This document shows positions 10,314 to 13,358 of a stretch of 15,713 bases of DNA, piece by piece. Position 1 is the stretch's first letter. The number at the start of each line of letters is the position of its first letter. The position numbers were made by a program, and so were the translations under genes. Under the pieces are notes generated by a model, which was not told the origin of the DNA, did no database searches, and was given only the letters and a program-made list of their open reading frames with translations. The DNA comes from Thiomicrospira sp. UBA5634 (lineage in GTDB: Bacteria > Pseudomonadota > Gammaproteobacteria > Thiomicrospirales > Thiomicrospiraceae): assembly GCA_002421475.1 (NCBI GenBank), contig DIJW01000227.1, forward strand, positions 4,246 to 19,958, given 5' to 3'.

Positions 10314-10703
10314 ATGACGGAATTAGCTAGTGATAAAGTTCGAGTAGATAAGTGGTTGTGGGCGGCGCGGTTTTTTAAAACTCGTGGCGTAGCGTTGGTG
10401 GCAGTTAAAGGCGGCAAAGTTGAGGTTAATGGTCAAAAACCTAAACCGAGTCGAAATTTAGCGGCGGGGGATTTGTTACGCATCACTCAACCGCATCGCA
10501 AAGTAGAGATTAAAGTTTTGCAATTAACCGAACATCGGGGCAATGCCGAGCAAGCGCAACAGTTGTTTGAATTAATCAGTGAAACTTTATTACAAACTAA
10601 GCCGACAGCCGATATGGCATTGGTGGGGTATCGAGAGAAAGGTGCCGGACGACCAACTAAAAAAGATCGACGCCAAATTGCGTCATTAAGTTGGCTAGAT
10701 TAA
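10314..10703 (+). CDS. hslR: Hsp15-like S4-domain RNA-binding protein
   Basis: Hsp15 (HslR) is a heat-shock protein that binds 50S subunits carrying stranded peptidyl-tRNA and helps to free them. The 129-residue product has an N-terminal S4 domain, VRVDKWLWAARFFKTRGVA (9-27), then GGKVEVNGQKPKPSRNL and a basic C-terminal tail GRPTKKDRRQ typical of the family; length is close to E. coli Hsp15. The ATG at 10314 is preferred over the GTG at 10311, which is too close to the AGG at 10304-10306. It follows hemF by 24 bp and may be co-transcribed. Its stop overlaps that of the convergent receiver gene by 3 bp (TTAA at 10700-10703). Confidence 0.9.
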   Translation: MTELASDKVRVDKWLWAARFFKTRGVALVAVKGGKVEVNGQKPKPSRNLAAGDLLRITQPHRKVEIKVLQLTEHRGNAEQAQQLFELISETLLQTKPTADMALVGYREKGAGRPTKKDRRQIASLSWLD

Positions 10704-11059
10704 TTAACTAGATTTTGCTGAATAATGGCTTCGAGTTCTTCAAATTTTATCGGTTTGTGAATATAACCACAGGCACCAACTTCTTCAGCTTGGTGATTCA
10801 TATCAATATCACCATGCCCACTCATGACTAAACAAGGCAGATTTTTTAGGACGGCCTTAATTTTTTTGATCAGCGTTAAACCATCCATTAAAGGCATACG
10901 AACATCGGTAATAACAAAGTCGACCGGATTTTGTTCAATGGTTTTTAATGCCTCAATACCGGATACGGCACTAATCACTTTAAATCCAGTTGTTTCAAGA
11001 CGCCATTTCAGCATCTTTAACATTGCCGGTTCGTCATCTACTAATAAAATCGTGCTCAT
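10700..11059 (-). CDS. Single-domain response regulator (receiver only)
   Basis: A 119-residue stand-alone receiver domain with no output domain. The phosphorylation site set is complete: acidic pair Asp8-Asp9 (LLVDDEP), phospho-acceptor Asp52 (ITDVRMP), Ser80 (VMSGHG) and Lys102 (HKPIK). With nothing after the fold, it must act by protein contact or pass phosphate onward, as CheY- or Spo0F-like proteins do. Its ATG overlaps the kinase stop by 4 bp (ATGA at complement 11056-11059), which signals co-translation and a cognate pair. The partner or target is not visible in the window. Its 3' end overlaps hslR tail to tail. Confidence 0.93.
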   Translation of the reverse strand: MSTILLVDDEPAMLKMLKWRLETTGFKVISAVSGIEALKTIEQNPVDFVITDVRMPLMDGLTLIKKIKAVLKNLPCLVMSGHGDIDMNHQAEEVGACGYIHKPIKFEELEAIIQQNLVN

Positions 11060-12741
11060 GAGGGTATCTCTGATAACTTGTGTGGAATATGCATAATAAA
11101 TGCACTTCCCTTGCCGATTTCAGATTGTATCATGAGACTAATGTTAAATTCCTGCAGAATATTATGTACGATAGAAAGACCTAATCCTGTACCTTCTCCT
11201 GCATCTTTTGTCGTAAAAAATGGATCTAAACAATGTTGTTTAGTCATTTCATCCATTCCAATACCATTGTCTTCAATTACTAAATTAACCTGCTGATGAT
11301 CGCAAGTTAAGGTGACGGTAATGGATTTTTGTCGATTATCTTTAAGTGCTTCTAATGCATGGCGAGCATTGGTAATTAAGTTGACGATCACCTGTTCAAA
11401 TTTTTGCGTTTCAATCAGTATTTCCGGACAAGTGATATCAATATGGGTTTTTAATTCGATACAGTTAATTCTTAACTGCTCTTTAAAGAAAGATAAAGCT
11501 GAATTAACAGGGTGATGTGGTTCTACCCAGCGTTTTGGCGAGGGTTGTAAACGTGCGAATGACCGCATATTGTTAATAATCTGAGTTGCACGATCAACTT
11601 GCTCAATGACATCCTGTGCAATTTCAACCTCAAATGCATCCGGGTTTTGAGCGATTAACGAGTGTTTTATCCCTTCTGCCCCCAATCTGATAACGGCAAG
11701 GGGTTGGTTGATTTCATGGGCAATACCGGTGGCCATTTCACCGAGAGACTTTAATCGACTGGCATGTGCCATTTGTGCTTGATAAGCCAGTTTAGCTTCT
11801 GCAGTTTTGAGTGCCTGAATATCTTTAATTACCAACAGAAAACGCGGGTAATCAACCTCCGTATTATCGAGTTTAAATTCAGTTGCAGAAAGTAAGCCAA
11901 AATGGTCATGCTGATCAGCTAAATGGAAACGGACTTCAAGGTTGTTTTCACCTAGGGTTCGAAGGCGATTCAGTAGTCGTTGGTTTTTTTCAACCGTCTG
12001 TAAATATTCTTGAATGAAATGGGATTGTAATTCTGCTAACGTGGCTTTGAATAGGCGTTGTGCCGACAGGTTGGCATCAAGAATCCTGCCTTGATGATCA
12101 ATTAAAAACAACATATCTTGCATGGTATTTAGGATTTGCTGTTTATATAAATGAGAGTGCCCTAATTGTTCTTGTGACAATAACGTTTGCTGCCAGAGTT
12201 TACGAGTTGCTAACCAAATAACCAGTAACAACATGGCTAATATTGTCAAAACGAAAAAGAATTTTTGTGAAATTTCTTTCACTAATAACTGATAATTTTC
12301 AGGGTTTACATAAAAAGTTAATGTTCCCAGTAGTAATAATGTTTTTTGATCGTACAGCGGGGTGACGACCTTAAAGCACTCATTACAGTTTATTTCGCCT
12401 CGTACCAACGCTCGGTTATGATCTGGGAAAAACTCAGGATTAAATTCAATTTTTATACCATTAATAAACGGCCGATTATAGGTAGCATCGTTATACAGTA
12501 AAATTTTTCCAATTTCTTTTTGAAGTAAAAATGCATCATGCAATACCACTTGGCTGGTTAATCCATGACTTAACGATTGCGTTAGCATGTGTGCTTGTGA
12601 TTGTGCTTCTTGTTGTAAACGAGGTTGTAATACATTATAGAAATAGGCAAATACCAGTAAAATTACCCCAAAAGATAATGCGATAAAAATTAAACCTAAT
12701 CGTCCCTGCGTTGATTGAAAAGGGGTGTTTTGTCTATTCAT
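11056..12741 (-). CDS. Membrane sensor histidine kinase with periplasmic CXXC loop and PAS-like domain
   Basis: A 561-residue sensor kinase. Order: membrane span about 14-36, periplasmic sensor region about 37-160, membrane span about 161-178, PAS-like domain about 200-310 (MQDMLFLIDHQGRILDANLSAQRLF), HisKA helix with His342 (GEMATGIAHEINQPL), and an ATPase domain with N box NLITNARHAL (454-463), DNGIGM (491-496), DPFFTTK (506-512) and GTGLGLS (517-523). The H-box and overall type resemble NtrB/DctB-like kinases. The periplasmic region holds a Cys-X-X-Cys pair, C119-N-E-C122, in RGEINCNECFKVVTPLY, which could bind metal or heme or act as a thiol switch; no CXXCH heme motif is present. It overlaps the upstream gene by 8 bp and the receiver gene by 4 bp. 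The signal sensed is unknown. Confidence 0.93.
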   Translation of the reverse strand: MNRQNTPFQSTQGRLGLIFIALSFGVILLVFAYFYNVLQPRLQQEAQSQAHMLTQSLSHGLTSQVVLHDAFLLQKEIGKILLYNDATYNRPFINGIKIEFNPEFFPDHNRALVRGEINCNECFKVVTPLYDQKTLLLLGTLTFYVNPENYQLLVKEISQKFFFVLTILAMLLLVIWLATRKLWQQTLLSQEQLGHSHLYKQQILNTMQDMLFLIDHQGRILDANLSAQRLFKATLAELQSHFIQEYLQTVEKNQRLLNRLRTLGENNLEVRFHLADQHDHFGLLSATEFKLDNTEVDYPRFLLVIKDIQALKTAEAKLAYQAQMAHASRLKSLGEMATGIAHEINQPLAVIRLGAEGIKHSLIAQNPDAFEVEIAQDVIEQVDRATQIINNMRSFARLQPSPKRWVEPHHPVNSALSFFKEQLRINCIELKTHIDITCPEILIETQKFEQVIVNLITNARHALEALKDNRQKSITVTLTCDHQQVNLVIEDNGIGMDEMTKQHCLDPFFTTKDAGEGTGLGLSIVHNILQEFNISLMIQSEIGKGSAFIMHIPHKLSEIPS

Positions 12742-13249
12742 AAACGTATGAAACTCTTACAAAAAATGGTTTAAATGAAATGTGTTTGTTTTGCAACGAC
12801 GTTTTATTTAAAACCGGTCTAACCTGTTCTTTAACGATTAAACCCGTATCCGTACCTAATTGAACGCTTTGCAGAAATGGGGAAAAGCTAAGTATGCCGT
12901 ATTGTTGGCTATGGGATATAACTTGTTTATTTACTAACTCGGGTGCACATAAAAAAACCAATCCAATGTCTTTACGTTGTAAAAATGTTTCGACATTCAT
13001 GACTTCAGTTGGGTGAGTTAGAAATTTGTTTAATTGTTGCGCAACGATATTTGCTTGATGATCATTTTCGTCATAAACAATTGCAATCGTTTTATGAGGG
13101 TTTTTCATACTGTGTATCGAGTTAACCAGGCTTGGAAAAAGTTCAACACCCACCCATAAATAAGCCTCATCGCGCGGATTAAGTGCGTTGCTTAAGCTAC
13201 TGAAAAAACTAATCAGTAAGAATATATAGGTTTGAATTAAACGTTTAAT
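12734..13249 (-). CDS. Putative exported periplasmic protein of a sensor operon, likely ATT start
   Basis: I do not recognise a named family. Starting at ATT (complement 13247-13249) gives 171 residues: a basic N-terminus (KRLIQTY), a hydrophobic core IFLLISFFSSL, an SNA-L cleavage site, then a mature domain LNPRDEAYLWVGVELFPSLV, a TIAIVYDEND strand, DIGLVFLCAPE, ILSFSPF and a C-terminal FKPFFVRVSYVYE. The alternating strand and helix pattern is like half of a periplasmic binding protein. From the in-frame TAG at complement 13259-13261 there is no ATG, GTG or TTG until a GTG at 13153, which would remove the signal peptide and the first mature residues. An extended -10 promoter lies about 30 nt upstream and AGAGA is 6 nt before ATT. 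The 3' end overlaps the kinase gene, suggesting a ligand-binding or signalling partner for the kinase. Confidence 0.75.
   Translation of the reverse strand: MKRLIQTYIFLLISFFSSLSNALNPRDEAYLWVGVELFPSLVNSIHSMKNPHKTIAIVYDENDHQANIVAQQLNKFLTHPTEVMNVETFLQRKDIGLVFLCAPELVNKQVISHSQQYGILSFSPFLQSVQLGTDTGLIVKEQVRPVLNKTSLQNKHISFKPFFVRVSYVYE
13125..13136. repeat. Near-match to the 12-bp palindrome (ACCAGGCTTGGA)
   Basis: Two mismatches from ACCAGGCCTGGT. It lies in coding sequence for FPSLVN of the putative periplasmic protein, and could be coincidental. Confidence 0.3.
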
Positions 13250-13280
13250 GGCAGTTCTCTAAGCCGAAATGAACTGAAAA

Positions 13281-13289
13281 ATTATAGCA
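13281..13289 (-). promoter_or_regulatory. Extended -10 promoter for the sensor operon
   Basis: On the minus strand the sequence is TGCTATAAT, a perfect extended -10 (TGNTATAAT). Such promoters do not need a good -35, and none is obvious here. Transcription would start near 13274, giving a leader of about 25 nt to the proposed ATT start. This is the only strong promoter-like sequence between prk and the three-gene operon. Confidence 0.65.
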
Positions 13290-13329: not shown

Positions 13330-13358
13330 GTGCCTAACAATCGGTTGATGTTAGGCAC
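13330..13358 (-). terminator. Strong 10-bp hairpin downstream of prk
   Basis: GTGCCTAACA and TGTTAGGCAC form a perfect 10-bp stem around a 9-nt loop, 12 bp after the prk stop. No U-run follows in the prk direction, so it is more likely an mRNA 3' stabiliser or factor-assisted terminator than a classic intrinsic terminator. It lies upstream of the sensor-operon promoter. Confidence 0.55.

Follow-up and report, generated by a model that had tools for sequence, protein, structure and literature searches.

The gene for initiation factor IF3, infC, begins with ATT in Escherichia coli and with ATC in Streptomyces, and the factor itself acts against non-canonical start codons, as related in an account of the Streptomyces gene sigR (PMC5472188). 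The same account gives the start of sigR as GTC, found in 32 of 34 cases across the genus with GTT in the other 2, in place of an annotated start that had been wrong, and presents the GTC start of this first gene and the overlap with the second gene, rsrA, as setting the ratio of regulator to partner. In E. coli, the AUU start of pcnB limits the amount of protein (Binns and Masters 2002, as cited in PMC1780047), and the Staphylococcus aureus genes cvfC1 (AUU) and ccpN (AUA) are described as having non-canonical starts that reach about 10% of the output of AUG in reporters in poor medium (PMC13009471). Starts at AUU are very rare: across 36 genome groups, only one change to AUU was reconstructed from 61,358 ancestral AUG starts and one from 5,080 GUG starts (PMC5622118). 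For the protein YfiR of Pseudomonas aeruginosa, four highly conserved cysteines have been described, and the same source already reports divergent variants that combine YfiR with a sensor kinase replacing the cyclase (PMC3375315). Searches of the open-licence PMC literature listed no paper describing an AUU start for a YfiR-like gene.

We analyzed a 15,713-nucleotide stretch of DNA from Thiomicrospira sp. UBA5634 (hereafter the window), in which a yfiR-like gene on the minus strand (13249-12734) very probably starts at an ATT codon (AUU in the transcript) at 13247..13249, as judged by sequence comparison. The full coding sequence read from this codon (12734..13249) has 171 codons and a stop, homologues in the genus, and a match to the YfiR fold. 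Its product of 171 residues has the N-terminus MKRLIQTYIFLLISFFSSLSNA-LNPRD, in which MKRLIQTYIFLLISFFSSLSNA (13184..13249) is a predicted signal peptide with two basic residues within the first seven, a hydrophobic core, and an S-x-A end, cleavage being predicted before LNPRD. The original prediction had placed such a signal peptide in the extension upstream of a GTG at 13153, and the basic start, the core, and the S-x-A end are all seen there. The details that it gave are exact: 35 codons are open between the in-frame upstream stop TAG (13261-13259) and the GTG, the extension contains no ATG, GTG, or TTG, the ATT at 13249-13247 is preceded at a distance of 6 nt by AGAGA (13256..13260), and an extended -10 element, TGCTATAAT (13281..13289), gives an expected start of transcription near 13274. 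Within the window, all frames are free of ATG, GTG, and TTG from the -10 element to 60 nt past the ATT, which argues against a start upstream in another frame followed by a shift into the yfiR-like frame; nothing was found in favor of such a frameshift, and we regard it as exceedingly improbable.

Homologues of the YfiR-like protein were found in seven of the nine genomes of the genus, its own included, and in none of the remaining genomes among the 57 searched; a scan of viral contigs gave no relative, and all matches in a sequence search of the PDB had E > 0.7. A tree of 21 proteins showed two clades, and 3 of its 18 inner branches were well supported: the split between clades A and B, the pairing of the window protein with P0002 (79% identical and from another contig), and that of P0017 with P0018. 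The DNA available for clade A consisted of four sequences, the window, L002, L003, and L004 (T. microaerophila ASL8-2, an isolate), of which L002 and L003 are close kin, and the sister clade B was represented by L005-L007. Whether relatives carry ATG or ATT at the start position, a question raised with the original prediction, was answered by the alignment: all four clade A genomes have ATT, and none of the three clade B loci has it at the start column, their in-frame GTG codons lying a few codons further upstream. The main alternative named at that time, an ATG-to-ATT mutation or a read error, is unsupported because the codon is kept in four of four genomes, including that of the isolate, which has no usable canonical start. 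The wider suspicion of a sequencing or assembly error, or of a broken gene, draws on the state of the assembly (235 contigs, 83.8% complete), but besides the same ATT and the same lack of a usable canonical start in T. microaerophila, the frame is intact to the stop, the conserved motifs are present, and P0002 on its separate contig is truncated too, making an artifact of this kind extremely improbable.

In the four clade A genomes, ATT-AAA occupies the same column, ungapped and always at a distance of exactly 22 codons from the signal-peptide end, and conservation sets in with it. Among the ungapped columns, 1 of 31 is invariant upstream of the ATT, followed by six of six (ATTAAA), and 23 of the 66 columns across the signal peptide are invariant. 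Codons 1 and 2 are the only ones among the 22 signal-peptide codons to be identical in the four genomes; a degenerate residue is common to all four proteins in 53 columns, of which 15 show a single codon throughout. When the 66 signal-peptide columns were shuffled, six invariant columns came first in 19 of 20,000 shuffles and a run of six invariant columns appeared anywhere in 206 of 20,000, figures that are post hoc and derive from four sequences, two of them (L002 and L003) closely related. Read from the ATT, the three other genomes show the same signal-peptide pattern as the window.

The window and T. microaerophila have no canonical codon able to give the full signal peptide, the first in-frame canonical codon of the latter being an ATG at codon 13; codon 4 is GTG in L002, and codons 4 and 5 are ATG in L003. 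With a canonical codon three to four codons later, the ATT may be dispensable in genes of the L002 and L003 type. These codons also lend themselves to another account, in which the ATT is merely a conserved isoleucine codon: translation would ancestrally have begun at codon 4 or 5, perhaps still the case in L002 and L003 and the position that gene callers assign to five further proteins resembling them (P0003-P0007), and the window lineage and T. microaerophila would have lost that start and would initiate poorly at another near-cognate codon. We consider this quite unlikely. The six columns before codon 4 are invariant, though L002 and L003 would then not translate them; in these two loci, the best stretch for pairing with the 16S tail lies just 0-1 nt from codons 4/5, as against 7 nt from the ATT; and inspection by eye showed no other near-cognate codon common to the four genomes, nor does any other in the window have a spaced motif.

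The preferred start, the ATT at codon 1, is preceded by a Shine-Dalgarno-like motif in all four clade A genomes (AGAGA, TGAGT, AGAGT, and TGGAA at spacings of 6, 7, 7, and 7 nt). The 16S 3' region of genomes G001 and G005 reads ...GGATCACCTCCTTT, and the strength of the motif is low across the clade, the duplex with the 16S tail giving -2.2 to -3.3 kcal/mol overall and -2.9 kcal/mol for the AGAGA of the window. The background rate of such motifs was about 10-11% of sampled positions (268/2660, 337/2994, 305/2827, and 545/5231), counted with a threshold of -2.15 kcal/mol and a spacing of 5-8 nt that were both picked after the clade A motifs had been seen. A TATAAT lies 30-33 nt before the ATT in all four genomes, and the TGCTATAAT element is not among the predictions of a consensus promoter scanner, which requires a -35 element. 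The predicted folds of the four leaders range from -2.3 to -8.3 kcal/mol and differ from one another, so we claim no special leader structure. Between the PRK gene and the promoter, the window contains a 10-bp perfect inverted repeat (13330-13358) without a T run, which is absent from the list of a terminator scan, and at gathering thresholds Rfam gave no family in the window. Three further candidates in the window, the ATT, ATA, and CTG at codons 5, 9, and 12, respectively, were rejected as starts, since none is preceded by a spaced Shine-Dalgarno-like motif and the basic residues would be lost.

The gene caller chose the GTG at 13151..13153, where P0001 begins, and a reading that follows this choice has translation producing a cytoplasmic protein of 139 residues, with the upstream signal peptide untranslated or vestigial. 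The GTG is the first in-frame canonical start, and in Thiomicrospira sp. ALE5, too, the annotation of P0015 begins at a codon inside the mature domain. Far from beginning at the GTG with unconserved sequence upstream, however, all seven homologues share A22, L23, R26, D27, and L31 ahead of that codon, along with V33, which the GTG itself encodes. This conservation strongly disfavors the GTG start, as do the signal-peptide design kept within clade A and the match to the YfiR fold (model residues 24-168), which begins before residue 33, and we rate its chances as very slim.

Initiation at the ATT would also account for the gene calls, a very rare AUU start leading gene-finding programs to clip off the export signal. 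Truncation by gene callers had been anticipated in the original prediction and is what the database holds, P0001 having 139 aa and P0002 135 aa. P0008, the called form of the L003 gene, begins at codon 10 by hand count and P0009 at codon 14; P0010 of clade A and, in the sister clade, P0017 and P0018 have short N-termini in their gene calls, which could point to a missing canonical start but need not. Also in the sister clade, the annotations of P0012 (L007) and P0015 (L006) clip within or after the signal peptide despite in-frame GTG codons upstream. Gene callers can thus hide an export signal: no fewer than five database entries (P0001, P0002, P0008, P0012, and P0015) have this gene clipped, at differing sites.

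Near-cognate initiation is probably in wider use in this genus. All nine genomes (L017-L025) have the pattern GGAGGAT-AA(A/G/C)-(A/G)CT-ATC-GCT-GTA at infC, from which the gene probably starts at ATC, so that IF3 itself would be near-cognate-initiated. An in-frame TTG lies upstream of this ATC in five of the nine (L017, L020, L022, L024, and L025), overlapping the Shine-Dalgarno sequence in four, and the other four genomes have none. For pcnB, the eight loci that passed the family cut-off have in-frame ATG codons close to the start. In T. microaerophila, a weak pcnB-like match (G004:C4:82421-83593, 56.8 bits) has three internal stops and is the sole long one beside a paralogue, which we take to be cca-like; pcnB may have decayed in this species.

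As a background check only, we compared a 460-kb part of G001 with the whole of G005 in search of homologous ORFs without a canonical start, the infC gene of G001 being outside the 460 kb. In a first, noisy form of the scan, 388 reciprocal pairs were obtained, the first canonical codon being preceded by at least 6 aligned residues in either member of 111 pairs and in both members of 53. After overlaps were removed, 301 pairs remained, and the numbers with at least 6, 10, 15, and 20 such residues in both members were 23, 14, 8, and 5. Four of the five longest lie in a 23S rRNA gene and one opposite a tRNA-Phe, and of the other three pairs with at least 15 residues, one covers 5S rRNA and two have a Met soon after, by eye. 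As all five pairs with at least 20 residues are at rRNA or tRNA loci, long conserved N-termini lacking a canonical start are rare in the portion covered. The yfiR-like gene itself was beyond the reach of this comparison, as it has canonical codons in both genomes.

The product looks like a divergent YfiR-like periplasmic protein. The fold test matched the YfiR fold, and the VIA-align ranking put two ABC substrate-binding proteins above YfiR. The Pfam model for YfiR/HmsC (DUF4154, PF13689) had no match in the window protein and at E up to 1 matched two of the seven homologues; G003 lay over the cut-off and G001 under it; precomputed PF13689 assignments are present on 7 of 10 database relatives, and the source name of P0008 and P0009 is "YfiR/HmsC family protein." The four conserved YfiR cysteines are absent, as each of the seven homologues has at most one Cys in its mature part and none is common to all, and we therefore call the protein YfiR-like and not a classical YfiR. 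The gene appears, then, to encode a YfiR-like protein that a normal Sec signal peptide would direct to the periplasm.

Downstream lie a membrane sensor histidine kinase (11056..12741, minus strand; HisKA, HATPase_c, and PAS by Pfam) and a single-domain response regulator (10700..11059, minus strand; Response_reg, 9.6e-30). The ATG of the kinase overlaps the 3' end of the yfiR-like gene by 8 nt (12734-12741), an overlap of the two genes found at all seven loci having the yfiR-like gene, and the ATG of the response regulator overlaps the end of the kinase by 4 nt. A fold search with the N-terminal 200 residues of the kinase gave no match at E 0.001, the best being 0.015. Within the predicted periplasmic part, a CxxCF motif (window 12373-12387, minus strand; residues 119-123) is invariant in eight of eight homologues and is a possible redox or metal site. 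The eight include the kinase of G008, where the order is PRK gene, sensor kinase, and response regulator (L046), with no yfiR-like ORF of at least 90 codons between the PRK gene and the kinase; the kinase can thus exist without the yfiR-like gene. A different DUF4154 protein is encoded elsewhere in G008 (L038). The kinase of G001 (L011:2444-4096, minus strand) is missing 12 residues just before the H-box that are present in the seven other aligned kinases, either through a natural in-frame deletion or through an assembly difference.

That ribosomes initiate at the ATT is our reading of aligned sequences, and the steps that would follow from it can be sketched. The fMet-tRNA would initiate at AUU with a small fraction of the efficiency of AUG, lower still because the Shine-Dalgarno motif is weak, and IF3, itself probably made from an ATC start in the genus, should act against it. 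The periplasmic YfiR-like regulator would then be in short supply, and low output of the protein is likely; control by IF3 and the setting of a ratio are plausible. The YfiR-like protein could bind the periplasmic part of the kinase encoded by the overlapping gene and bias it as YfiR does YfiN, and through coupling at the overlapping ATG, the kinase may share some of this limitation. Taken as a whole, we advance only tentatively, and consider doubtful, the idea that the AUU is an IF3-sensitive valve under selection that sets the ratio of YfiR-like protein to kinase in a periplasmic redox-sensing module, the cysteine chemistry having moved from YfiR to the CxxC of the kinase; redox sensing may have moved to the kinase with it. 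If this is true, the AUU keeps a repressor scarce relative to its kinase, shifts in IF3 or in the state of the ribosomes re-tune the sensor, and the envelope sensor of this sulfur bacterium parallels the sigR-rsrA design. A start kept across several species also offers a natural test of why a gene retains an inefficient initiator.

Compared with the described systems, the locus resembles infC in having a near-cognate start in a regulatory context; unlike infC, which regulates IF3 itself, its product would be a signaling protein with a signal peptide, and its Shine-Dalgarno motif is weak. With pcnB of E. coli it would share an AUU that limits the amount of protein, whereas pcnB in this genus has an in-frame ATG near the start in the eight loci. 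The S. aureus genes cvfC1 and ccpN are similar in that known or possible regulators have a conserved non-canonical start but are described with extended Shine-Dalgarno motifs and were mapped by ribosome profiling (PMC13009471). As in YfiBNR of P. aeruginosa, a predicted periplasmic protein of the YfiR fold is encoded with a membrane sensor; unlike there, the four YfiR cysteines are absent and the predicted periplasmic part of the kinase carries an invariant CxxC. The closest published design appears to be sigR-rsrA, with a sensor kinase here as the partner: in both, taking the ATT as the start here, the start is rare and conserved, the annotated start is wrong, and the rare codon stands on the first of two regulatory genes, with the start of the second overlapping the stop of the first. 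The codon here is ATT, in contrast to the GTC of sigR, for which a strong AGGAGGTG and experimentally shown repression by IF3 are reported. Near-cognate starts are already known from infC, pcnB, sigR, and ccpN, and the yfiR-like gene would be an added case.
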